DNA of 64,000 bases, from positions 1 through 64,000 of the forward strand of contig JABSRN010000049.1 of assembly GCA_013214025.1 (NCBI GenBank), given 5' to 3'. Below are positions 13,089 through 46,599 of this stretch, piece by piece. The translations under genes and the position numbers were made by a program. Below the pieces are notes generated by a model that made no database searches, had not been told where the DNA came from, and saw nothing but the letters and a program-made list of their open reading frames with translations. Every line of letters starts with the position of its first letter. Position 1 is the first letter of the stretch. The DNA comes from Polyangiaceae bacterium. GTDB taxonomy: Bacteria > Myxococcota_A > Polyangia > Polyangiales > Polyangiaceae.

Positions 13089-13622
13089 TCAGTTGCCGGC
13101 GTCTGAGTCCGGTAGCTCGCTGAGCGGCAGACCGAAGAGCGAATCGCTACGGGCATCAGCGTGGCAGCGTTGGCACAGCGCGGGTTCGAGCTCCGCATCC
13201 AGATTTCCGTCGGCGCGCACGATCCCAAAGCGCCAACCGTCTTCCTGGCGTTTCATCAGGTAGACGGGACCGGGGCTCTCGCTGGCTCGAAGTGTATGAA
13301 ACTGGCCGATCAATGCACCGATCGGCAGCTTCGTGCTGAAGACCAAGCTTTGATACTTGGTGGCGGAGGCGGCGGGCAGCACTCGGACCTGAGCGGTGTA
13401 GCGGCCGGCCGCATGCCCTTGGGAAACGAAGGGGGCGGAGGGCAAGGCTCTGCCCTGTTGCAGCTTCGCTAGCCCAGGCCAACTCGTGTGGGCCGGTACC
13501 GGGCGCGGTGGCGGATTGGCGACCGGCTGGGCGTAGTCCTGCTCCCAACTCTGCTGCGAGGAGCAAGCGAGAGCGCCAGCCGCGAGGGCTAGCGAGATTT
13601 GGAGGGAGCGGGCGCCGGGCAG
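13089..13622 (-). CDS. Cytochrome P460-like c-type heme lipoprotein without a standard start codon
   Basis: The frame has a single CXXCH heme site (CQRCHADARSD) near the C-terminus after a WRFGIVRADG strand, as in cytochrome P460-family proteins. Reading upstream in frame from 13445 gives a continuous N-terminus with a lipoprotein leader (ISLALAAGALAC, Cys as lipidation site) and a Pro-rich linker. However, no ATG, GTG or TTG exists in frame between the upstream stop near 13714 and the TTG at 13443-13445, which is too far inside the domain. CTG at 13620-13622 would give a 177-aa protein and is the best guess. Its 5' end lies a few bases from the divergent lipoprotein gene. P460 proteins act in hydroxylamine or other redox reactions in the periplasm; the substrate here is unknown. 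Confidence 0.6.
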   Translation of the reverse strand: MPGARSLQISLALAAGALACSSQQSWEQDYAQPVANPPPRPVPAHTSWPGLAKLQQGRALPSAPFVSQGHAAGRYTAQVRVLPAASATKYQSLVFSTKLPIGALIGQFHTLRASESPGPVYLMKRQEDGWRFGIVRADGNLDAELEPALCQRCHADARSDSLFGLPLSELPDSDAGN

Positions 13623-13628
13623 GTCGGC

Positions 13629-14603
13629 ATGGTAGCAAATCGTATGGCCCTTCGCTCGACATGGACAATGGCTGCGCTCCTGGGCGCCGTCAGTGCGGGT
13701 TGTGTGTCATCTGAGAAGGTCGCGCCGCTCCGGGTCGCGCCTCCGGCAGTGAGCGCGGAGCCGGCGGTGGAAAAAGCGGAAAGTGCTGCCGCGGCACCAG
13801 CGGAGCCGGCTCTGTCCGCTCGGGAGCCGACTACGGAGCCACCTCGAACCCCACCCAAGCAAAAGGCCGCTGCCCGGGGACGGGGCTGGCTAGGCATCGA
13901 GCTGTCGGCAACTTCTCCCGAGATGTCCGGTGTACGCGTGCGCGGTGTAGTCCCCGATTCTCCGGCTGCGAGCGCGGGCTTGACCGCGGGCGATGTTGTG
14001 CTTTCGGTGGGGGACCGAGACGTCAACACGCCCATCGATTTGGCCCGCCGGGTCGGTGGTGTGCGGGCTGGCAGTACCATCGAGCTGAAGATCTCGCGTG
14101 CCAACAAGATCCGCCAGGTTGAGGTGGTGTTGGGCGTTTCCCCTTCGCGGCAGACGCTGCTTCGCACCAGGTACTTGGATCGGCCCGCGCCAGAGTTGAG
14201 TCAACTCAAACTGGTGCAAGGCACCGTGCCGACTGATCTGAAAAAACTCCGAGGCAAGGTCGTCTTGATCGAGTTCTGGGCGTCCTGGTGCGGCGTTTGC
14301 CGATTGGTCACGCCGTTGATGAACGATCTCGACGCGCGTTTCCGAGCCAGTGGCGTGCGGGTTCTGGGTGTGACGATGGATTCTGTCTCGAAGGCAGCCG
14401 AGTATGCGGACGCCCTAGGAATGAAATACCCTGTGCTGTCTGACGAACAGGGCGCCACCACGCGCAACTACGGCGCCCGCGCCCTCCCGCTTCTGTTCGT
14501 GATCGATAAGAAGGGCGTCGTACGGGACGTGGTGATCGGATTTGACGGTCGCCGGTATCGGGATCTGCCGGCCCTCGTCGAGCGATTGCTAGCAGAGGGC
14601 TAG
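13629..14603 (+). CDS. Lipoprotein with PDZ and TlpA-like thioredoxin domains
   Basis: 324 aa from the ATG at 13629; a TTG at 13599 and an ATG at 13644 are alternatives. The leader ends AVSAGC, a lipobox, followed by a Pro/Ala/Glu linker. A PDZ domain lies at ~80-165 (LGIELSATSPEM, SPAASAGLTAGDVVLSVGD). A thioredoxin fold follows at ~205-320 with the active site WASWCGVC and a cis-Pro segment ALPLLFVIDKKG. TlpA/ResA-type proteins reduce disulfides in exported proteins, often apocytochromes c. The adjacent divergent c-heme lipoprotein (13089-13622) makes that role plausible here. The PDZ probably recruits a client. Confidence 0.85.
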   Translation: MVANRMALRSTWTMAALLGAVSAGCVSSEKVAPLRVAPPAVSAEPAVEKAESAAAAPAEPALSAREPTTEPPRTPPKQKAAARGRGWLGIELSATSPEMSGVRVRGVVPDSPAASAGLTAGDVVLSVGDRDVNTPIDLARRVGGVRAGSTIELKISRANKIRQVEVVLGVSPSRQTLLRTRYLDRPAPELSQLKLVQGTVPTDLKKLRGKVVLIEFWASWCGVCRLVTPLMNDLDARFRASGVRVLGVTMDSVSKAAEYADALGMKYPVLSDEQGATTRNYGARALPLLFVIDKKGVVRDVVIGFDGRRYRDLPALVERLLAEG

Positions 14604-33527: not shown

Positions 33528-34415
33528 TCAGTGAATGCCGGCGACGAGCTCGGCGGTCTCACGATCGCTTAGATCCGCGGCGATCGCGTAACCGAGACCG
33601 TGGTGTTCCGCGACTGCAATCTGGTATCCGCGGCGTCGTCCGACGTAGATAGGTCGGTCTCGGACTATACGGCGCTCAAGCCGATGGTGCACCGGGACTC
33701 GGGCAGAGTTGTAGACATAGAGCGTGACGTCGTGATTGGACAGACGGTAGCGCAGTCGCACAGCGTGGTGTTTTCGAATGGGGATCACGCTGCCGCCTTG
33801 TAACAAGCCGCCGTAGCGCTCGAAGCTGGGTACCTGTACGCGCACTCCAACATCGGGTTCGAAGCGGGCGATCACTTCAGGATCTGTCGCTGACAGTGGA
33901 GGCGGTGAGGCGTGAAAGTCCAACAAACGATCGAGCATGCTCTCGACTGAGCTCGACACCGCCTCGGGACTAGTCGGGACCGATGCCGTGGTGCTTTGAA
34001 CCACCGGGGTTGTGGCGAGCCGTGGAGCTGAGCTTTGCTGCCCGGCAAAGTAGAGAAGAACGGCGGCGGCCAAGGCGAGCCCGGACATGGCCCGGCGGAG
34101 CGTCGCTTGCCCTTTGGAAGCAGAAGGCGAGGCGTCGGACGCTGAGCTATCTAATTGGATCGCCGGAGAACTGTTCCGAAGTTCGTCGTCCCGTACATCT
34201 GCAATGGCGGCCTGGATCCTAGCGCTGAGTGCAGTGGGGATGGGCTCGGCGTGAACAGCTTTCCGAGTGGAGTCGGCGATGGCTTCGCAAAGCGCGAGTC
34301 GGTCACGACACTCGGTGCAGACTCGAAGGTGTGCTTGCACATCGTACAGCTGCGGGGGGAGCAGCTCCCCGTCCATCAGACTGTCGAGGAAAAGCAGCAT
34401 GTCTTCGCAGTTCAT
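33528..34415 (-). CDS. Anti-sigma factor with zinc-finger-type N-terminus
   Basis: 295 aa. The N-terminal ZAS-like zinc finger has the H-x3-C-x2-C pattern in [16 protein letters not shown]. One membrane helix lies at ~107-125 ([17 protein letters not shown]). The periplasmic part (~130-295) is long and beta-rich, likely a sensor. It overlaps the sigma-factor gene by 4 bases (ATGA). Such membrane anti-sigma factors hold an ECF sigma inactive until proteolysed or switched by an envelope signal. Confidence 0.87.
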
Positions 34416-35044
34416 GTTCGCGCTCCTCGCTTGCGGTACGCTCCGAGATCGACCGGACTCTGGTCGTCCGTCTCCGCTTCTACGAGGCCGAAGGCTCGGG
34501 CCTGGGCCACCAAGGATTTTCGAAGCAGTGCGCGACCGCGGTGTAGCCGGCTCATCACAGTTCCCAGGGGCCGTTCAATGACTTCGGAGATTTCTCGGTA
34601 GGAGAGTTCTTCGACGTCTGCCAGCAGCACCACGAAACGAAACTCTTCTGGGAGTTTGTCGAGGGCAGCGACAATTTCCGTTTCGAGCATGGGTCGCAAG
34701 GCACCGGACTCGGCCTCTCTCATGCCGCTCAAGGTAGCGTTGCCGGTCCAACCTGCCCGCAGTGGCGCGGCCGTCTCCAGGGTCATGACGCTCCGCTCTA
34801 ATGTGTCGCGCCGGTAGCGGTTGATGAAGGTGTTGCGCAGGATCTTGAGCAACCACGCCTTGAGGTTGGTCCCCACCCGATATTGTCGCCGGGCCCGGAA
34901 GGCCTTGACTAGCGTGTCCTGAACCAGATCTTCGGCGTCACTGGGGTTGCGGGTGAGACGGCGGGCGGCACTCAGCAACACCCCGACATGGGTGAGAGTA
35001 TGGGTCTCGAACTGCTGATCTTCTGTCTGGGGCATCGTCTGCAC
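34412..35044 (-). CDS. ECF-type RNA polymerase sigma factor
   Basis: 210 aa. Region 2 is clear ([36 protein letters not shown]-like) and region 4 has [20 protein letters not shown] then [10 protein letters not shown]. No region 3 is present, as expected for ECF factors. Start is the GTG at 35044, with GGAAG about ten bases upstream; an ATG at 35035 is possible. It works with the overlapping anti-sigma gene downstream. It probably reads an envelope or stress signal. Confidence 0.92.
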
Positions 35045-35249
35045 GCCGTTGGGTCTTCCCGGGGCAACCCGGACCTAGAGAGTCCTATTCCGATTCAATG
35101 ACAAAAAGCTCGCCGCGGCGCAGCAAGGGCCTGCGCTGGCTGCAAACAACAGCTCGGGACAGCTGCGGGGCTGCCCGCCGCTTCGCGTGTCCCCAAACAG
35201 GGTGTCCCTGAACACCCGAGATCCCCAAAGCCCGGATGTTGCAGCCGGC
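35045..35249. other. Intergenic region with hairpin after phaR-like gene
   Basis: About 205 bases between the sigma-factor start and the stop of the PhaR-like gene, with no gene. Near 35210-35227 GGGTGT/ACACCC can pair, and near 35241-35260 a CAGCCGGCT repeat pairs. One of these may terminate the minus-strand PhaR-like transcript. Confidence 0.4.
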
Positions 35250-35927
35250 TCAGCCGGCTGAGTCGTCTGACTGCTTTTCAGCCAGCTTGCTCTCGAGAGA
35301 TTCGATTCGTGACTTCAGCGTAGTTATGTCGCTTTGCAGCTCTCGGATAGTAGAAAAATTCGGCAGAATCGCCCGAATTCGTTCGTCCACTACGCTCTGC
35401 CACTGTTCTATCGTCGCTCGTATTCCTCGGGGATCGTTGCCCATCTCGGCCTCCTCTTCGTCGCGCAGGGCCTTGGCTGTCGCCAGCTCCGCTTCGTCGG
35501 CGTCCCCTGGGATCAGCTTTCCCATCGGGCTTTCCCTCAACTGAGTGAGGAACTTCCCGCTGCGGTGTCGAATCAGCGCTTTCAGGGTCCCCAACGGGAT
35601 GTTTCGCGGTTTTGCCTTGAGCTCTTCGGAGATGATGAGCGCGAGGGTGATGTCCGTCTTGTCTTCCTTGGTCGCGTTGTCGATGATTTGAACTTCTTCA
35701 CCGGCGCGCACCATTTCCGCGATTTGAAGGAGTGTCACGTAGCGACTGTCTTTGGTGTCGTAGAGCTTTCGGTTGGAGTAGCGCTTGATCACGCGCAACT
35801 CCTGTTGGACGACGCCCGTCTCCGGGGCGTCGTCGTTGGTGCTTTCTTCTTCAGCCACGGTGATGGTTTCTCGCTCAGCGGGATCCGGGTTCGAATCCAC
35901 ACGTGCAGTAGAGTCAGATTGGCGCAT
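35250..35927 (-). CDS. PHA accumulation regulator DNA-binding domain protein (PhaR-like)
   Basis: 225 aa. The N-terminal DNA-binding domain has IKRYSNRKLYDTKDSRYVTL, LQIAEMVRAGEEVQIIDN and a TLALIISEELK helix, a signature of PhaR/PhbF-type regulators. The C-terminus forms a coiled coil (LQSDITTLKSRIESLESKL). In other bacteria PhaR represses polyhydroxyalkanoate genes or binds granules. No pha synthesis gene is nearby, so the target here is unknown. Confidence 0.87.
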   Translation of the reverse strand: MRQSDSTARVDSNPDPAERETITVAEEESTNDDAPETGVVQQELRVIKRYSNRKLYDTKDSRYVTLLQIAEMVRAGEEVQIIDNATKEDKTDITLALIISEELKAKPRNIPLGTLKALIRHRSGKFLTQLRESPMGKLIPGDADEAELATAKALRDEEEAEMGNDPRGIRATIEQWQSVVDERIRAILPNFSTIRELQSDITTLKSRIESLESKLAEKQSDDSAG

Positions 35928-36091: not shown

Positions 36092-36709
36092 CTAGGCGAT
36101 CCTGCCGAGAGGCACACGGTCCGCTGCTCGCAGATCTTCCAATTCGTGCTGGCAAAGCCTCACTAGCAATCCGAGAAAATCACTGAAATTCGTTGCACTG
36201 ACTCCCAATTCGCTAACCCAGGCGACGACTTCCAGTTCGCCGTCGCGGTGGCGCCGCTGGCTGTTGAAGGCAAAGAGGGTGGTGGCCTGGGCATCGACTG
36301 CGAAAGGGATGAGGGTTGGCCGAGGGCGAAAAGCGGGGTGGGTGGCCTCCGGCGCCAGTGGGGATTCGGCAGCCTCGATGGCGGCACGGGCCAAGGTCTC
36401 GTAGCTGCGCGTTCCCAGTTCGGATGCGCTGAGCATGCTCGCTCCCTCGAAAAACCGCGGCCAGCCGTTATGCAGCTGTAAAAACTCACGATAACTAGGG
36501 GGGAGTCGGTGGCCCAAGCGGGCTTCGGCGGCGACGATCTGGTCGGCCGTGGCCGCCGGGTTGGGGACCAAGCCTGTGTCGCGATAGGGCGCGGCCCGCA
36601 TCAACGCAGATTGGGTATTACGAAATTCGCCCAGGGCATGTCGCCAGCTGTCGCCACTCACGAGCAGGAACCTCGCGCATCCACCCCGAACCGGACCAGA
36701 AACTGACAC
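36092..36709 (-). CDS. SMI1/KNR4 family protein
   Basis: 205 aa from a GTG at 36709. The family core is clear: ATADQIVAAEARLGHRLPPS then YREFLQLHNGWPRFFEGA. The C-terminal half has another alternating pattern (AVDAQATTLFAFNS). SMI1/KNR4 proteins often are immunity proteins to contact-dependent toxins, but no toxin gene is beside it. A general chaperone-like or unknown role is equally possible. Confidence 0.8.
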   Translation of the reverse strand: MSVSGPVRGGCARFLLVSGDSWRHALGEFRNTQSALMRAAPYRDTGLVPNPAATADQIVAAEARLGHRLPPSYREFLQLHNGWPRFFEGASMLSASELGTRSYETLARAAIEAAESPLAPEATHPAFRPRPTLIPFAVDAQATTLFAFNSQRRHRDGELEVVAWVSELGVSATNFSDFLGLLVRLCQHELEDLRAADRVPLGRIA

Positions 36710-36781
36710 TTAATGATGCCGGCACCTGCTGAGGCCCGCCCAAATTTCGCCTGATGTACCGCTGGAGGTTATAGCCGAAGC

Positions 36782-38644
36782 GTGTTCTTTCAGCGTGTCG
36801 CTGTCCTCTGGCTTTGCTGTTTTGCAGTGTCCTGCCAGCTGCAGTCCGCGCCGGATCTGCTGAGTGTTGAGCGGGTCCACCCCGCCCAGCTTCGGCAGGG
36901 GGACCGGCTGCTGATCGACGGTCGCGGATTGCCCGCAGGCAAGATCGCCTCTGTGACTCTGACGGGTGAGGTGGTGCGCGCTGGATCATCGAAGCGAGTG
37001 AGCGTGCTTGTGTCCGCTCCAGCCCGGAGTTCGGCCGGGGATCAAGTGTCCATGGTTCTGGATGACGCGATGAGTACTCAGCTATGTGGGACCGCCGATG
37101 ATGCGCGACATTCCACATTTCGAGGAAACATCCGCCTCGCGTTCGCTCCCAAGCTTCGCGGTGCGCCTCCCATCGTGGGGACCTTGCGCGGAGTCGTGCT
37201 CGACTTTTTTCCGAGCGGCGTGACCGATTCGGTTCGGGCGCAGCGCCGGCGGCTTGGCATACAAGGCTTGGAAGCTTTGGGGATTGGATTTGGGCCGGCG
37301 GGTAACGCAGGCACTTCCGGCGAACGGATGGTGCGTCCGGTAGTTTCAGTTCGGGCGGGCAGTAGCGCCCAGCGTGGCGGAATCATCGTGGGCGATCGCC
37401 TGACGGGCTTTCACGGGCTCAATCTGTATACGTTGAGCGATCTGTCCTTGCCTCCGGGGCAGGACCTCTTGCCCATTGAGGTGCAGCGTGCGGGCGTGCC
37501 GGGCGTGGTGGCCGTCACTTTGGACGCCCGGGGCCTCGCTCCGCTGGCCGCCGGAGACGCCGCTCCCTGGCAAGCATTGCTCCTGATCGCCGCGCTGGCT
37601 TTCGGTTTCGTCATGAGTCCGCTTTTTGCGATGAGTCGCTGGCTGGAGTTGAGCCTCGGCGCTCGTCTCGCTGCCTGGCGCCGTTATGGCGCGACTGCGG
37701 CTTCCCGCGTTGGCCACGGTCCCTTGATCGATTCGAGCCGGACACGGGGGCGTTCGGGCTCCAGAGCGATTCGCTACGCCTTGCTGCTTCTTGTGCTCGG
37801 CGTTTTCGCGGCGGCCGCGGGCGGCACCAGAATGCTGGGTATCGAGTACGCGCCGATTACGCTGTATCTGATTTCGTCCATCAGCTTCGCTACGATTGGG
37901 CTGATCGCGGGGGGGGCCCAAGGCTTGGGTTGGTCTCTGCGCCGAGGCATGGCGAGCACGCTCTCTATCGCGGTTCTGGATTTGCCGCTGGTGGTAATGA
38001 TTGCCACGGCCGCGATCTCCACGGGCAGTTTTCGAGTTGAGGATTGGGCGACGGCTCAAGGCCTCTACCCGTGGCAGTGGAAGCTCTTCGCGAGTCCGAC
38101 CTGTTTGCTGATGCTCTTGGCAGCTGTCCCCGCCTGGTTCGTCGGGGAGCCGGGCACGCTGGCATATCGGCAGGCGGTGGTATCCCGGCGCCCCGGGTCT
38201 CGGCGTCTGGGGTCTTGGTTCGAGGCGATCGCGTGGTTTCATCGAACGGCTTCTGTGGCGATGCTCAGCCTTCTGTGCCTGGGCAATCTGGGTCAAGGTT
38301 GCTTCGGCGTCGAGTCGTCGCCCCTGCTGGGGGTCGTGTTCTTTCAGTTCAAATTTGCAGGCGTCTTGCTGGCGGCCGGCCTTTTGAAAATGGCGATTCC
38401 GTCTCTGGCAGCGCCGCGAGTACTGCGCCACAGCTGGCGGGCGGGGGGGGCGTTGATGGCGCTGGCCTTTGCCCTGGAGATGACCCTGCATCACTGGGGC
38501 GTGCTGTGGGTGCCACCGGCTGAGCGTGAGCTGCTGTCGATGGTGCTCTGCGGAGTCGCTCTTGTGGTGTTGCTGGTGGTGTGTCGTCGCGTGATGCGCA
38601 TTGCGCTCGCCCCTGCGACCAGCGGCATCAATCCCTGGCTCTAG
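36782..38644 (+). CDS. Lipoprotein-PDZ domain fused to a NuoH-like membrane domain
   Basis: 620 aa from a GTG at 36782. A leader ends FAVSC (lipobox-like). Residues ~25-150 are beta-rich, perhaps an IPT/TIG-like fold. A PDZ-like domain lies at ~165-255 (VSVRAGSSAQRGGIIVGDRL, LLPIEVQRAG). From ~262 on there are about eight membrane helices. Their order and segments such as ASTLSIAVLDLPLVV and QFKFAGVLLAAGLLKMAIPS resemble NuoH, the quinone-site subunit of complex I. The acidic NuoH loop is replaced by GEPGTLAY near 456, so proton transfer is doubtful. I do not recognise this architecture from named families. Confidence 0.72.
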   Translation: MFFQRVAVLWLCCFAVSCQLQSAPDLLSVERVHPAQLRQGDRLLIDGRGLPAGKIASVTLTGEVVRAGSSKRVSVLVSAPARSSAGDQVSMVLDDAMSTQLCGTADDARHSTFRGNIRLAFAPKLRGAPPIVGTLRGVVLDFFPSGVTDSVRAQRRRLGIQGLEALGIGFGPAGNAGTSGERMVRPVVSVRAGSSAQRGGIIVGDRLTGFHGLNLYTLSDLSLPPGQDLLPIEVQRAGVPGVVAVTLDARGLAPLAAGDAAPWQALLLIAALAFGFVMSPLFAMSRWLELSLGARLAAWRRYGATAASRVGHGPLIDSSRTRGRSGSRAIRYALLLLVLGVFAAAAGGTRMLGIEYAPITLYLISSISFATIGLIAGGAQGLGWSLRRGMASTLSIAVLDLPLVVMIATAAISTGSFRVEDWATAQGLYPWQWKLFASPTCLLMLLAAVPAWFVGEPGTLAYRQAVVSRRPGSRRLGSWFEAIAWFHRTASVAMLSLLCLGNLGQGCFGVESSPLLGVVFFQFKFAGVLLAAGLLKMAIPSLAAPRVLRHSWRAGGALMALAFALEMTLHHWGVLWVPPAERELLSMVLCGVALVVLLVVCRRVMRIALAPATSGINPWL

Positions 38645-38745: not shown

Positions 38746-39813
38746 GTGAGTGTGGGAGCAGGGCAGCGTTGGGGGCTATGGGCAGGCGTGCTCGCGCTAC
38801 TGTTCACCACCAGCCCCTCCTACGCGGCGTCGCCCGTCGCGGTTGAGGCGACGCAAAATGCTCGGTGGCAGGAGCGACGGGTCATTCTGGAAGTCGATCC
38901 GTCTCTGCAACTGACCTCCCCTGTAGCCTTTGAGGCTGCCAGATCAGCGGCTAGGGCCTGGCAAAAAGCATCTCCAGATATGCCGAAGGTGGAGTTGGTC
39001 TCTCGGCGTGTCGGGCAGGTTGGCTACGTGCCGGCGGGACCTAACTCGAACACGATTCGATTCGCCGCGGAAGGCGACCCGGCGGCTGACGGCGCTTTAG
39101 CGATTACGATTATCACTTTCGACGGTCCCAGCGGTCGCATCCTCGATGCGGATATCATTCTGAATGGCGATTACGCCTTCGCTTCGGTTGAGGAGGCGCC
39201 GGAGTCGGGGGCCCCAGTTTACGACATTCAGAACGTGTTGACCCACGAGATGGGGCACTTCTTCGGGCTGAGGGAAAACTACGTGGATTCCGGCGCGACG
39301 ATGTACGCGTTTTCGCAACCGGGTGAGATCACGAAACGAGATCTGAACTCGGCGGATCTGACACGCTTCGACGAGTTATATCGCGTGGGGGGTGACGTGG
39401 ATTTTTTGGCGTTCTGCCGTGCCTTGTCGCCACTGGTGTCCGTGCAGCACCCCGGCTGCTGGCTCAGCTTGCTGGCGATCGCCCTGTTGCTGCTGTACGG
39501 GGTGGGAGCCCGGCGGGCCGGTGCGGCGCTGGCATGTGGTGTTCTACTGGTTGGTAGCGCTCTCGCGGTGCGGTCGGAGCTCGCGGAGGCGACTTGGCTC
39601 GGGGCTGATTGGCGCAGCGCTGATTGGCACGGCACGGCCTTGTACGACACCGAGTCGAGCGATCGAGTTCATCCGGTGGTGGTGATGTGGGCGCTGTATC
39701 CAGCGGAAACACATGGGGCCCATGTTGGCGCAACTGACGGCCACTACGCCGAGCTGACTAGCTCGGGGAGCGCAGCGTTTCCCCGGCAGATAAGGATTGA
39801 AAATGGCAACTGA
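38746..39813 (+). CDS. Matrixin-like zinc metalloprotease with C-terminal membrane helices
   Basis: 355 aa from a GTG. A signal peptide (~10-28, ending SYA) precedes the protease domain. Zinc motif HEMGHFFGLREN starts at His ~167, and a Met-turn-like ATMYAFSQ follows, which fits the M10/matrixin fold (third ligand in this family is usually His; here the position reads REN, so it may be changed). After ~215 residues there are two hydrophobic helices (SLLAIALLLLYGV, ALACGVLLVGSALAV) and an outside tail. It overlaps the PilZ gene by 11 bases. Confidence 0.78.
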   Translation: MSVGAGQRWGLWAGVLALLFTTSPSYAASPVAVEATQNARWQERRVILEVDPSLQLTSPVAFEAARSAARAWQKASPDMPKVELVSRRVGQVGYVPAGPNSNTIRFAAEGDPAADGALAITIITFDGPSGRILDADIILNGDYAFASVEEAPESGAPVYDIQNVLTHEMGHFFGLRENYVDSGATMYAFSQPGEITKRDLNSADLTRFDELYRVGGDVDFLAFCRALSPLVSVQHPGCWLSLLAIALLLLYGVGARRAGAALACGVLLVGSALAVRSELAEATWLGADWRSADWHGTALYDTESSDRVHPVVVMWALYPAETHGAHVGATDGHYAELTSSGSAAFPRQIRIENGN

Positions 39814-41910: not shown

Positions 41911-42174
41911 GCCATGGGCGTTATCATGGAAACACCCGGGCCGGCCATAGGCGTGTGCTCCAGGTGCCACCCGGGCTTCGCAGCGGCTAGATCGTGAATT
42001 GTACGGAACATCTGTCTTCGGTGGTGGCTGGGCCCGCACGCCGGGTGTTCCAGAACCACGCGTCCCCCGGATCGGTAACGTCGGCGTCCCGGATCGGTGG
42101 CAAATTGCCGCATCGCTCCATGTCTCCGCATCGCACGCGGCTGGGGGACGGGGCCTGCTAGGCTGAGGCCCCCT
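41911..42174. other. Divergent intergenic region between sseB-like and ATPase genes
   Basis: About 264 bases with no gene. Contains a direct repeat of CCGGATCGG at 42066-42074 and 42091-42099. Promoters for both flanking genes should be here. Confidence 0.4.
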
Positions 42175-45100
42175 ATGCGATTCATGGAAATTGCGACTCC
42201 GGTCGCCAGGCTTTTCGCGCGGCGCACTCGCCGTTGCAGTGTCGGCAGCCAGCGGGCTCAAATCGAATACCGCCAAATCAATTCCGCCGAGCTTGAGGTG
42301 TTCAAGGCGAGTCTGAAGGAACTCGCGGCGGAGTACCCGGCGATCACACGGGTCGACGTTAACGCCTTCACCCAACGGGTGGTTGTGTCCTTCGAGGAGT
42401 TCGATGCCGCAGCGCCAGAGCTCTTGCGATTTGTTGAAGAAGCGGAGCTCGCAGCCCGGGTGGACCGGGCCGAGCTGCGCGCTTCGGAAGATCATCCGAC
42501 GGATCTCGAACCCCCGCTTCGACGCAGCGTGGAGCTGGGTGTGGCGGCCTTGAGCCTGGCAACTTCCGTCGGCCTGAAGATCTCCCCGCTGCCTACCGTG
42601 CCCTTCGCGGGCAACACGGCTGCGGCTCTTTCCATCTTGCGCAGTTCACCACGCCTTCGTCGGGGCTTGGAGGAGCGACTCGGTCGAGATCGCACCGGTT
42701 TCTTGCTCAACTTGGCGAGCTCGGTGACCAACGTGGCCGCCCAACGACCCTCCAGCGCATTCGTGGAGAGTCTGCATCGACTCAGCTTGCTGGGCGAATC
42801 GATGTCTCGGCGAGCTGCCTGGAGCGAGCGCGATGATGAATTGCACGAGCTGATCCCCCCGGAGAACGAGGAGATGCTCGAAGAGCACACACGCCCGCGC
42901 GAGATGACCCGCGGCCCCATCGAGGAATACGCGGATCGAGCTTGGTTTATTTCGCTGAGCGGCTTTGCGGCTAGTTTTGTGACGACCCGGAACCTGCAGC
43001 GCGCCACTGCCGCGCTGTTTGGCGGAGTGCCGCGCCCTGCGCGATTGGGTCGCGACGTTTTTGCGGCAGATCTGGCGCGTGTCTTGGCTGCTCGTGGCAC
43101 CGTCGTTATGGACCCCGCGGCGCTGCGGTTATTGGATCGCGTCGATTGCGTTGTGCTCGACTCGGACGTTGTCTACAAACATCAGTTCGTAGTCGGAGAA
43201 GTCGTGGGCGACGTCGCCATCCCGGCGGATGCCAACTCCCGGGCAACAGCCCTGTTCGACGTCGGCGATCCCCTTGCTGTGAAGGAGGACGGAGGTTATC
43301 GGCTAGGCCCGATCCCGCTGCTCGACGCTGTGATCAGCGAGGGCATGGCGGCCCGGGGTGCGGAGCTGGCTCGCGACGGAGCGTTGGTATTGGGATTGGC
43401 ATCCGAGGGACGGGTCTTGGCGGTGGTTCAAGTCACTATCACCGCGAAAACGGGCGTCGAGGAGTTAGTGGATACAGCTCAGAGCAGCGGATTGAGAGTG
43501 GTGATCGCATCCAGCGACGAGGCCATTCTTCAAAGCTTGAACGCCGACGACGTGATTTCCGACCGGGAGGGACTGACTCAAGGCATCCGGCGACTGCAGC
43601 GGGATGGCCGCACGGTATGTTTAGTGTCTGGACACACCAGCGCTGGATTCGCAGCAGCTGATTGCGTGATCGGCTTGTGTCCGGAAGGTCAGCGACCGCC
43701 CTGGGGGGCCGCGTTGCTAGTGCGCTCGGATTTGAGTGATGTGCGTTACATCCTTGAAAGCTGTCGTGTTGCCCGCCAAGTATCTCGTCAGAGCGTTAAC
43801 GTAGCGCTGGGTGCTGCGTCCTTGGGAGCCGTGGTTTCGGCAGGGGGTTTGCTCCCACTCCGTGCCGCCCGAGTGCTGAGCGTCGTCAACTTGGCGACGC
43901 TGACGAGCATGGCGAACGGTGTTCGCCACTCCAGCGCGCTACGGCGTAAAGAACTACCGCCACCCCGTGACCCGACGCCCTGGCACGCCCTGCATCCTCA
44001 GGGGGCTCTGGCGCGATTGCATACATCAGAGCAAGGCCTGTCGTCGAAACAGCTCGTTCCGCGCAAGCCGGAGGCGCCGAAGTTGGCGGCCGCAGGTGAG
44101 CTGGTGGCAGCCATCACGGACGAGATGTTCAACCCCTTGGCTCCGGTGCTGGCGGCGGGTGCTGGATTGTCGGCGGTCGTCGGGTCCGTGACGGACGCGG
44201 CAATGGTCGCTGGCGTCGTGGTGGTCAACGCGGTGGCGGGCGGAACTCAGCGTTTCGTAGCGGAACGCAAGCTACGCGAGATGAGACGAGGTAAACGTCG
44301 TTTTGCGCGGGTTCGTCGCGATGGTCTGGAGTATCGAATCGACGCCGTAGAGTTGGTCTGTGGCGATCTCGTGATGGTCGGTCCGGGCGATGTCATCCCG
44401 GCGGATCTCCGCATTCTGGAGAGTACCTCCTTGGAGGTGGACGCATCGAGCCTCACGGGGGAGTCCTTGCCCGTTGCAAAATCTGGGGAAGCCTCCTTCG
44501 AGAGCCAAATTGCGGATCGCCGCTGCATGCTCTACGAGGGCACGACGGTGGCCGCGGGCACGGCGACTGCCGTCGTGGTGGCGGTCGGTCAAGCCACGGA
44601 GGCGCATCGTGGCGCGGGCAAGACGGAGCTCAGCGCCCAGGGTGGCGTCGAGCAACGGCTACGCGCGCTGATGAACCTTACAGGACCCATCGCGCTGACG
44701 GCGGGGCTGGGTGTGGTTGGCGCCGGGCTGGTGCGCGGTCGCCGCTTGAAAGACTTGGTCGAATCTGGCGTGAGCTTGGCAGTGGCGTCCGTCCCGGAAG
44801 GACTGCCGATGCTGGCGACGGCTGCGCAGTTGGCGGCAGCCCAACGACTCGGCAAACACGGTGCACTTGTACGCAATATTCGTGCCCTGGAAGCTCTCGG
44901 CCGAGTGGACACCGTTTGCGTCGACAAGACCGGCACGCTCACTCTGGGTCGCCTTGAGCTGCATGCCCTGAGCGATGGGGACTCCGAGATGCCCGTCGAA
45001 AAACTACGCGGTCATTTGTTGGAGGCCATCGCTGCGGCGAGTCGAGCGACTCTCGGTCCGGACCATCCTCTGAGCGATTCCGATCCAACTGACAACGCGG

Positions 45101-46599
45101 TGCGCCGTGCCGCCAGGTTGGCGGGCATGACGCCGGACTATCGGGTGCCGGGCTGGGAGCGACTCAGCGAAGTTTCATTCGAGGCCGGGCGTAGTTACCA
45201 CGCGGTCCTGGCGGATACGGATGCGGCGCCGCGGATTAGTGTGAAAGGCGCGCCCGAGGCGCTCCTGCCGGTGTGTACCGAAGAGATCCGGGATGGCGAA
45301 CGAGTGCCGTTGACCGGCGTGCGCCGGGCTGAATTGTCCGACACTGTCTCCCAGATGGGGCGGCGCGGGCTGCGAGTGCTGGGTGTCGCCGAAAAGACTC
45401 ACACGTCGACTGAGCCGCTGAGCCCAGACGATATCACCGAGCTGTGTTTTGGCGGCTTATTGTTGTTTACGGATCCAGTACGCCAGGAGGCCCGCGCGGC
45501 CCTAGAAGGGCTACGGGAGACCGGCACTGAATTGATCATGATCACCGGAGACCACCCGAGCACCGCGGAAGCTATTGCTGTGCAGCTGGGCATGTTGCTG
45601 AACCGGTCCGTGCTGACCGGCGGCGAGCTCGCTCAGCTGAGTGACCGTGACGTCGACAAACGAGTGGCGAACGTTGCGGTGTTTGCGCGCATGACGCCGT
45701 CGCAAAAAGTTCGCATTGTGCGGGCGCTGCAGCGAGCCGGTCGTGTTGTGGCGATGGTCGGTGACGGCGCCAACGACGCGGCGGCAATCCGTTTGGCTGA
45801 CGTCGGGATTGCGATGGGCGAACAGAGCACTGCAGCCGCACGGGAAGCGGCCGACATCGTGCTGAGCGACGGCCGCCTGCACACGCTGGTGGAAGCCATC
45901 GTGGAGGGTCGGGGCATGTGGGATTCGGTCCACGACGCCGTGTCTATCCTGATGGGTGGCAACTTTGGCGAAATCGCGTTCACCCTGGGCGCCGGTCTGA
46001 TCGATGGGCGACCGCCGCTGCACGCACGACAGTTGTTGCTGGTAAATTTGTTGACCGATATCGCGCCGGCCATGGCCATCGCGGTCCGCCCGCCGAGCGC
46101 CGAGCGAATGACGGTGTTGCGCCAGAAGCCGACCGAAAGCACCCTTGACGAGGAGCTGACGGCCGACATGGTGGGCCGGGCCGCGGTGACCGCACTGGGG
46201 GCGAGCAGTGCCTTTTTTGCAAGTCGTCTGATGGGCGGTGGGGCCAAGGCGCGTACTACCGGATTGCTCGCGCTGGTGGGCACCCAGTTGGGCCAGACGC
46301 TGCGAGCCGGGCACGGCAGCCGGTCGGTGCAGCGCACCAGCCTGGGGTCAGCGGTGCTGCTAGCCGCGGTAGTGCAAACGCCAGGCGTCAGTCATTTCTT
46401 CGGGTGCCGCCCTTTGGGCCCAGTGGGTTGGGCGACAGCCATCGGCGCCTCTGTAGGGGCGACGGCCGCCAGCCCCTATGTCGACAATTGGCTGAGCGGT
46501 AGCCGCATGGCGGCGCTGCAGGGCCTGACTCGCCGCTTTCGCGGCTCTGACTTGGTGTTGGAGCTCGAGCGCGGCGTCGATTCGGCCGAACCGGCTTAG
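42175..46599 (+). CDS. Double-length cation P-type ATPase with an inactive first half
   Basis: 1474 aa from the ATG at 42175 (the frame opens at 42097). The second half is a complete P-type ATPase: TGES near 760, DKTGTLT with phospho-Asp ~917, KGAPEALLP near 1025, and GDGANDAAAIRLADVG near 1195. The N-half has an HMA-like start, then a degenerate P domain in which the DKTGT site reads CVVLDSDVV (~325) and the hinge reads VIGLCPEGQRP, so it cannot be phosphorylated. This plan recalls mycobacterial CtpH/CtpI. The ion is unknown; no Cys-Pro-Cys metal motif is seen. Confidence 0.88.
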   Translation: MRFMEIATPVARLFARRTRRCSVGSQRAQIEYRQINSAELEVFKASLKELAAEYPAITRVDVNAFTQRVVVSFEEFDAAAPELLRFVEEAELAARVDRAELRASEDHPTDLEPPLRRSVELGVAALSLATSVGLKISPLPTVPFAGNTAAALSILRSSPRLRRGLEERLGRDRTGFLLNLASSVTNVAAQRPSSAFVESLHRLSLLGESMSRRAAWSERDDELHELIPPENEEMLEEHTRPREMTRGPIEEYADRAWFISLSGFAASFVTTRNLQRATAALFGGVPRPARLGRDVFAADLARVLAARGTVVMDPAALRLLDRVDCVVLDSDVVYKHQFVVGEVVGDVAIPADANSRATALFDVGDPLAVKEDGGYRLGPIPLLDAVISEGMAARGAELARDGALVLGLASEGRVLAVVQVTITAKTGVEELVDTAQSSGLRVVIASSDEAILQSLNADDVISDREGLTQGIRRLQRDGRTVCLVSGHTSAGFAAADCVIGLCPEGQRPPWGAALLVRSDLSDVRYILESCRVARQVSRQSVNVALGAASLGAVVSAGGLLPLRAARVLSVVNLATLTSMANGVRHSSALRRKELPPPRDPTPWHALHPQGALARLHTSEQGLSSKQLVPRKPEAPKLAAAGELVAAITDEMFNPLAPVLAAGAGLSAVVGSVTDAAMVAGVVVVNAVAGGTQRFVAERKLREMRRGKRRFARVRRDGLEYRIDAVELVCGDLVMVGPGDVIPADLRILESTSLEVDASSLTGESLPVAKSGEASFESQIADRRCMLYEGTTVAAGTATAVVVAVGQATEAHRGAGKTELSAQGGVEQRLRALMNLTGPIALTAGLGVVGAGLVRGRRLKDLVESGVSLAVASVPEGLPMLATAAQLAAAQRLGKHGALVRNIRALEALGRVDTVCVDKTGTLTLGRLELHALSDGDSEMPVEKLRGHLLEAIAAASRATLGPDHPLSDSDPTDNAVRRAARLAGMTPDYRVPGWERLSEVSFEAGRSYHAVLADTDAAPRISVKGAPEALLPVCTEEIRDGERVPLTGVRRAELSDTVSQMGRRGLRVLGVAEKTHTSTEPLSPDDITELCFGGLLLFTDPVRQEARAALEGLRETGTELIMITGDHPSTAEAIAVQLGMLLNRSVLTGGELAQLSDRDVDKRVANVAVFARMTPSQKVRIVRALQRAGRVVAMVGDGANDAAAIRLADVGIAMGEQSTAAAREAADIVLSDGRLHTLVEAIVEGRGMWDSVHDAVSILMGGNFGEIAFTLGAGLIDGRPPLHARQLLLVNLLTDIAPAMAIAVRPPSAERMTVLRQKPTESTLDEELTADMVGRAAVTALGASSAFFASRLMGGGAKARTTGLLALVGTQLGQTLRAGHGSRSVQRTSLGSAVLLAAVVQTPGVSHFFGCRPLGPVGWATAIGASVGATAASPYVDNWLSGSRMAALQGLTRRFRGSDLVLELERGVDSAEPA

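Follow-up and report, generated by a model that had tools for sequence, protein, structure and literature searches.

A PDZ lipoprotein with a decayed NuoH domain in the Polyangiaceae, a probable descendant of a periplasmically decorated second complex I

A single gene at 36782..38644 (+) of the window, the whole stretch of 64,000 nucleotides of a Polyangiaceae contig analysed here, encodes a lipoprotein with a PDZ domain joined to a membrane domain that has decayed from NuoH. The gene is probably the degenerate H subunit of an 11-subunit complex I decorated on its periplasmic side, and its product would now be a periplasmic PDZ scaffold that has ceased to pump. A search for other proteins uniting PDZ and NuoH, as suggested by an earlier sequence-only reading of this DNA, revealed a family with relatives in 49 of the 59 genomes searched from the Polyangiaceae and the remainder of their order (protein search). 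These relatives are approximately 30% identical, mostly full-length and present as one main copy per genome, and the main matches are free of internal stops. Match counts over the whole phylum are left out as a measure of prevalence, because many of these matches span just the NuoH part and represent ordinary NuoH. The window protein alone gave no match when used as the query of further genome contigs; the named Sorangium and Polyangium loci were found with the N-terminal domains of intact members as the query. In agreement with the earlier reading, no family with this domain plan is named in the Pfam and NCBIfam libraries or in the open-access literature searched, and open-access searches for PDZ-linked NuoH, for duplicated complex I in myxobacteria and for complex I of Sorangium turned up nothing of relevance.

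Gene architecture and NuoH ancestry

The gene is one open reading frame of 620 codons (620 aa) without interruption, as read in the window, with a GTG start at 36782 and a GGAGG ribosome-binding-like site, read directly, 13 nt 5' of the GTG (36764..36768, +). Gene maps were drawn with a simple ORF heuristic and no trained gene finder. Along the protein follow a lipobox, an Ig-like beta domain, a helix (149-166), a PDZ domain of the HtrA type and nine membrane helices. The plan of lipobox, beta-rich region, PDZ-like domain and membrane helices proposed from the letters is confirmed as that of one intact gene, with nine helices in place of the approximately eight then counted. The frameshift joining two separate genes that had been considered at that time did not appear; this explanation, and likewise an assembly artefact, was rejected because dozens of genomes have the identical N-to-C architecture over its full length, and their main matches are free of internal stops.

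The signal peptide and lipobox (36782..36835, +) lead to the acylation residue Cys18, which is invariant in 38/38 aligned members, and by the lipobox criterion the protein is a bacterial lipoprotein with predicted lipidation. The Ig-like (TIG/DBB-like) beta domain occupies residues 25-143 (36854..37210, +) and was modelled by AF2 with pLDDT mostly 90+, the mean being 90 over the 234 N-terminal residues that follow the signal peptide. Its family assignment is tentative, since 6sws_B (DBB, TIG-like; Z 8.0, residues 10-149 of the N-terminal model) alone among the listed structural neighbours covers this domain. The PDZ domain of HtrA/DegS type at residues 167-248 (37280..37525, +) matches PDZ_6 (PF17820) at E 2.6e-4, under the curated cut-off, when the window protein is taken alone, and the same Pfam model is matched in 38/38 family members at E up to 0.01. 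The predicted fold also compares well with the PDZ domains of DegS, HtrA2 and DegP (Z about 9, up to 9.1), and the PDZ-like domain seen at first inspection is thereby borne out. The fold is held in common with the periplasmic PDZ domains of HtrA, DegS and RseP (Z 8-9), but here it lacks a protease domain and is joined to a complex I subunit instead. The lipobox Cys, the glycines and prolines of the beta domain and the PDZ residues are conserved throughout the family alignment. Elsewhere in the window, an AhpC/TSA-redoxin domain is joined to a PDZ domain (13599-14603, +).

Residues 262-603 (37565..38590, +) constitute the membrane domain, which by alignment, predicted fold and topology is derived from NuoH. 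With the window sequence alone, PF00146 was not matched in Pfam, and NuoH was likewise missing from the results of the NCBIfam and PDB searches made with it. On sequence criteria, homology to NuoH (PF00146) becomes apparent only through the family, in which PF00146 was matched in 27 of the 38 members (up to 1.7e-115) and whose profile placed NdhA/NuoH at the top in the PDB (2.4e-47). Two segments singled out earlier for their likeness to NuoH fall on NuoH counterparts in the family alignment, ASTLSIAVLDLPLVV on the equivalent stretch and QFKFAGVLLAAGLLKMAIPS on FLLKSWxLxFVVIWIRWTLPR. Against NuoH/ND1/NdhA chains, which account for every structure match listed, the predicted membrane part gave a best Z of 13.6 over 255 residues, with a model of low confidence (pLDDT about 45-75) whose input alignment included intact NuoH relatives. 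A nine-helix NuoH fold is thus predicted for the window protein, no other transporter family gave a better match, and the resemblance in helix order and segments is supported by profile, alignment and predicted fold alike.

A membrane domain of another transporter family that resembles NuoH but is unrelated to it would accord with the lack of a NuoH match in the single-sequence Pfam and PDB searches. It is hardly credible, however, in view of an unbroken series of full-length relatives that leads to canonical NuoH from the window protein, itself 31% identical to the G006 member (7.9e-54), the conserved neighbour genes, the first rank of NdhA/NuoH for the family profile and the match of the predicted structure; other transporter families were ruled out by the last two. 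The window protein and NuoH/ND1/NdhA both have nine helices in the same order and have in common the GSxR and AQG..PWxW motifs, the Gly at the end of TM6 and the TM7 Lys, the lipoprotein-beta-PDZ part being the addition of the window protein. The loops carry 4 Lys/Arg on the presumed periplasmic and 16 on the presumed cytoplasmic side (positive-inside rule), which fits a predicted topology with the N-terminus outside and the C-terminus inside. The NuoH-derived bundle and the N-terminal lipid would hold the Ig-like and PDZ domains at the periplasmic surface of the inner membrane.

Intact relatives and the second complex I

In nine genomes (G003, G005, G014, G015, G016, G018, G022, G023 and G029) the lipoprotein-PDZ part is fused to a canonical NuoH, and the aligned Sorangium cellulosum sequences (L122, L125, L126) carry this fusion too. 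The intact NuoH part retains the classical motifs, including RIGPNRxGPQGF and KED, with Pfam E-values of 4.7e-114 and 1.4e-114 in two members. A second NuoD besides the canonical copy is present in 9/9 intact genomes, and NuoI-J-K-L-M-N operons occur in intact relatives. In G014, one locus carries NuoA-B-C-D and a second carries NuoI-J-K-L-M-N, with all the eleven subunits distributed over three loci; in other Myxococcota families the eleven-subunit complex is encoded in one operon. No homologs of NuoE, F or G were found in the second-complex-I loci read, and genome-wide counts of PF01512 (eight matches in G014) are uninformative because this domain also occurs in other enzymes. Judged by gene content, the second complex I of the nine intact genomes probably belongs to the 11-subunit type (NuoA-D, H-N).

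A complex I of this type without the NADH module is exemplified by Desulfitobacterium hafniense (PMC11238625). The gene set of the intact relatives appears to be the same as that of the D. hafniense complex and of the cyanobacterial/plastid NDH-1, and NdhA is the best profile match. The Polyangiaceae differ from these in that H, L and M each bear an added domain with a predicted periplasmic location; in the intact complexes, roughly 150 residues are inserted after the TM6 equivalent of NuoL, and NuoM begins with an exported N-terminal domain of roughly 200 residues. By the accepted topology, the added domains of all three subunits are presumably periplasmic, and no description of such a decoration of H, L and M was found in the open-access literature searched. 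Bacterial complex I is usually viewed as nearly bare on its outer side. If three pump subunits of a second complex I bear Ig-like, PDZ and further domains, this would point to a connection, so far unexplored, of respiration with the cell envelope in myxobacteria, a question which is testable because the intact form occurs in Sorangium cellulosum, a species that can be cultured. At L093:7185-12067 (+), the long insert of NuoL has a His/Asp/Lys-rich stretch and NuoM has the exported N-terminal domain; Pfam assigned no family to these added parts.

The decoration of NuoH appears to have proceeded in stages, from bare NuoH to NuoH with a beta domain and then to NuoH with lipoprotein and PDZ. Other Myxococcota have bare NuoH of 400-428 aa with no extension (L181-L183), NuoH to which a signal peptide and a beta domain have been added (L178-L180, L188-L190) and, as the last stage, NuoH with lipoprotein, beta domain and PDZ, two of these having EF-hand-like sequence in the PDZ region. 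In the loci compared, NuoM is short (about 555 aa; L182, L183) where NuoH is bare and long (681 aa; L177) where NuoH is decorated. The EF-hand-like stretch beside the NuoH PDZ of these two class-level relatives (L177:1610-3685, +; L184:9279-11375, -), with weak Pfam EF-hand matches, suggests that complex I there has a periplasmic module responsive to calcium. Mrp antiporters and membrane-bound hydrogenases have antiporter-like or NuoH-like subunits in common with complex I; Mrp is not known to contain NuoH, and no hydrogenase-type neighbours were seen beside the window gene.

By sequence and by position too, the window gene is read as a decayed ortholog of the intact PDZ-NuoH genes. The orthologous locus is marked by a conserved upstream block (33528..35927, -) of zinc-finger anti-sigma-like, ECF sigma and PHB-type regulator genes; the sigma and anti-sigma genes lie upstream in 18 of the 41 loci, including 8 of the 9 with intact PDZ-NuoH, and the block has, as far as is known, no part in the function of the protein. 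The sequence-only reading had regarded the membrane domain as a NuoH fold reused. The ancestry holds, but the fold was not borrowed de novo, because the same fusion occurs in relatives with its NuoH intact, together with the genes for a complete second complex I; the protein would instead be a complex I subunit that has lost its pump.

Several other genes lie close to the family members. A SUKH (SMI1/KNR4) domain protein adjoins the window gene (36092-36709, -) and is conserved in five loci, and an NTP-transferase is found upstream on the opposite strand in some loci. Downstream, a Matrixin-type metalloprotease (38746-39813, +) shows a weak likeness to the MXAN_2677/2678 family, far under the cut-off; it was discarded as a clue to function because its homologs lie near the gene in only 4 of the 41 loci.

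One-sided decay of the membrane domain

Relative to a functional NuoH, the window copy is without the RxGPNxxGPxG loop, the KED motif and the acidic TM5-6 loop. The decayed TM1-TM2 cytoplasmic loop (residues 287-327; 37640..37762, +) has lost RIGPNRxGPQGF, ADGxKS and KED, and alignment with intact relatives revealed neither the RxGPNxxGPxG nor the KED element of the quinone site. The TM5-TM6 loop, which in Nqo8 has a role in the E-channel and quinone cavity (PMC7434922), is cut to GEPGTLAY (residues 455-462; 38144..38167, +), a reduction recognised in the initial reading and verified against intact NuoH relatives. The window copy retains 8 of the 36 charged residues invariant in intact membrane domains and is without the other 28. 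The best-kept part of its membrane domain is the TM4-TM5 periplasmic loop (residues 413-437; 38018..38092, +), with GSxR..D...AQG..PWQW.

Mean retention of the residues invariant in intact members, over 29 decayed proteins, was highest in the lipoprotein/PDZ part (0.77) and fell to 0.51 for periplasmic loops, 0.33 for helices and 0.20 for cytoplasmic loops. The contrast between periplasmic and cytoplasmic loops (P = 8e-7 over these proteins, for alignment columns that share ancestry) was sought after the alignment had been seen, with topology labels from hydropathy and the positive-inside rule. Intact pairs are 44% identical in the N-terminal part versus 77% in the membrane part, and decayed pairs 31% versus 23.5%; the N-terminal identity exceeds that of the membrane part in 96% of the decayed and 0% of the intact pairs. 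The decay is shown by these alignments to be one-sided, with the periplasmic side kept and the cytoplasmic side lost. The cytoplasmic side of complex I is the docking site of the redox arm and the place of the quinone cavity. In NuoL/NuoM of the decayed relatives, the TM5 Glu, TM7 Lys, TM8 His/Lys and TM12 Lys/Glu, with proton-path roles as given in PMC9271201, are mostly replaced, while they are retained in 7/7 intact complexes examined. In a tree built by a quick method, rooted with undecorated NuoH and showing long branches, the decayed state arose from intact forms on at least two occasions; the window protein itself lies on a long branch (1.91) and its placement within the decayed group is unsure.

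These patterns bear on the two roles, envelope scaffold or quinone sensor, that were proposed from the sequence. A quinone sensor or regulator, with the NuoH domain binding quinone and the PDZ relaying the signal, could draw on the retained NuoH fold and topology, but the TM1-2 and TM5-6 loops that line the cavity are among the least conserved parts and the second NuoD that would contribute to the cavity is absent. As the cavity loops are lost and no such Q-module was found in the genome, this role is very improbable; an envelope scaffold is plausible and fits the conservation pattern.

A slowly dying pseudogene, left as a functionless relic after loss of the second complex I, would explain why the pump residues are gone and why partners were not found in the window genome. 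It is nevertheless quite unlikely, because frames of 500-700 codons have remained open, without stops in the main matches, across dozens of genera at approximately 25-30% identity. The invariant lipobox Cys and detectable PDZ in 38/38 members, the same retained state reached by at least two separate decays and the preferential retention of the periplasmic face also argue against it. Under the favoured reading as a scaffold, the redox and proton-pumping role of the second complex I would have been lost from the window protein, which would survive by useful work of its periplasmic side. The PDZ would most likely bind an envelope protein at its C-terminus or at an exposed strand, and the window protein could thereby act as an envelope scaffold.

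A broader account is offered tentatively: that in the Polyangiaceae and their kin H, L and M of a complex I gained periplasmic domains, that the redox arm and proton paths were then lost at least twice, and that the decorated membrane subunits may persist as a non-pumping envelope machine or scaffold, of which the window protein, with H alone, would be the most reduced form. The series of intact, partly decayed, H-L-M only and H only forms constitutes a natural experiment. It separates the faces of NuoH constrained by the redox arm from those under constraint from the periplasmic side, and it suggests that subunits of a pump can persist after the pump itself is lost.

Partner subunits in the window genome and its relatives

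One canonical NuoH and one NuoD are present in the window genome, together with Mrp and a canonical complex I split between two loci. The canonical complex lies at the distant loci L078 and L079 (B-C-D-G-H-I and E-F-J-K-L-M-N), and its NuoH, of 603 aa, is longer than usual. Neither a decorated NuoL nor a decorated NuoM was found in this genome, nor was a matching Q-module (NuoB, CD, I), the lone NuoD being located in the canonical cluster with its own NuoH; the decayed H is the only subunit of the second complex I found. Its partners could lie in gaps, since the assembly consists of 184 contigs at 97% completeness. The H-only state is not just an assembly effect, because the single-contig genomes G019 and G048 likewise have a decayed H, no decorated L/M and one NuoD.

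In other relatives the partners persist. Decayed NuoL-like and/or NuoM-like genes follow the decayed H in eight loci, and L and M are both present in 23 genomes with H, nine intact and 14 decayed. None of the 10 genomes without H has both L and M; M or L occurs in two of them, G001 and G035, both incomplete. The association of H with L and M has a Fisher p of 0.0045 over all genomes and 0.06 at >=90% completeness, for genomes that are not independent; thresholds for the presence of L/M were set by hand, and the presence of H was taken from the order/family search combined with a phylum-wide search. A residual H-L-M machine in these relatives is possible. The window protein itself could then be a subunit of a reduced H-L-M membrane complex, made of decayed NuoH, NuoL and NuoM with their added periplasmic domains and performing transport or force transmission in another manner, with L and M undetected here. 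The genes following decayed H, the joint retention of L and M in the 14 decayed relatives and their association with H speak for such a complex, but it is unlikely for the window protein, as decorated L or M was not found in its genome, the charged residues of the antiporter path are mostly lost in L and M, and M or L occurs without a detected H in G001 and G035.

At L048:9941-13705 (+), directly downstream of a decayed PDZ-NuoH, a 1254-aa ORF joins decayed NuoL-like and NuoM-like parts. The window also encodes a 1500-aa P-type ATPase (42097-46599, +) with a long N-terminal region without a Pfam match.
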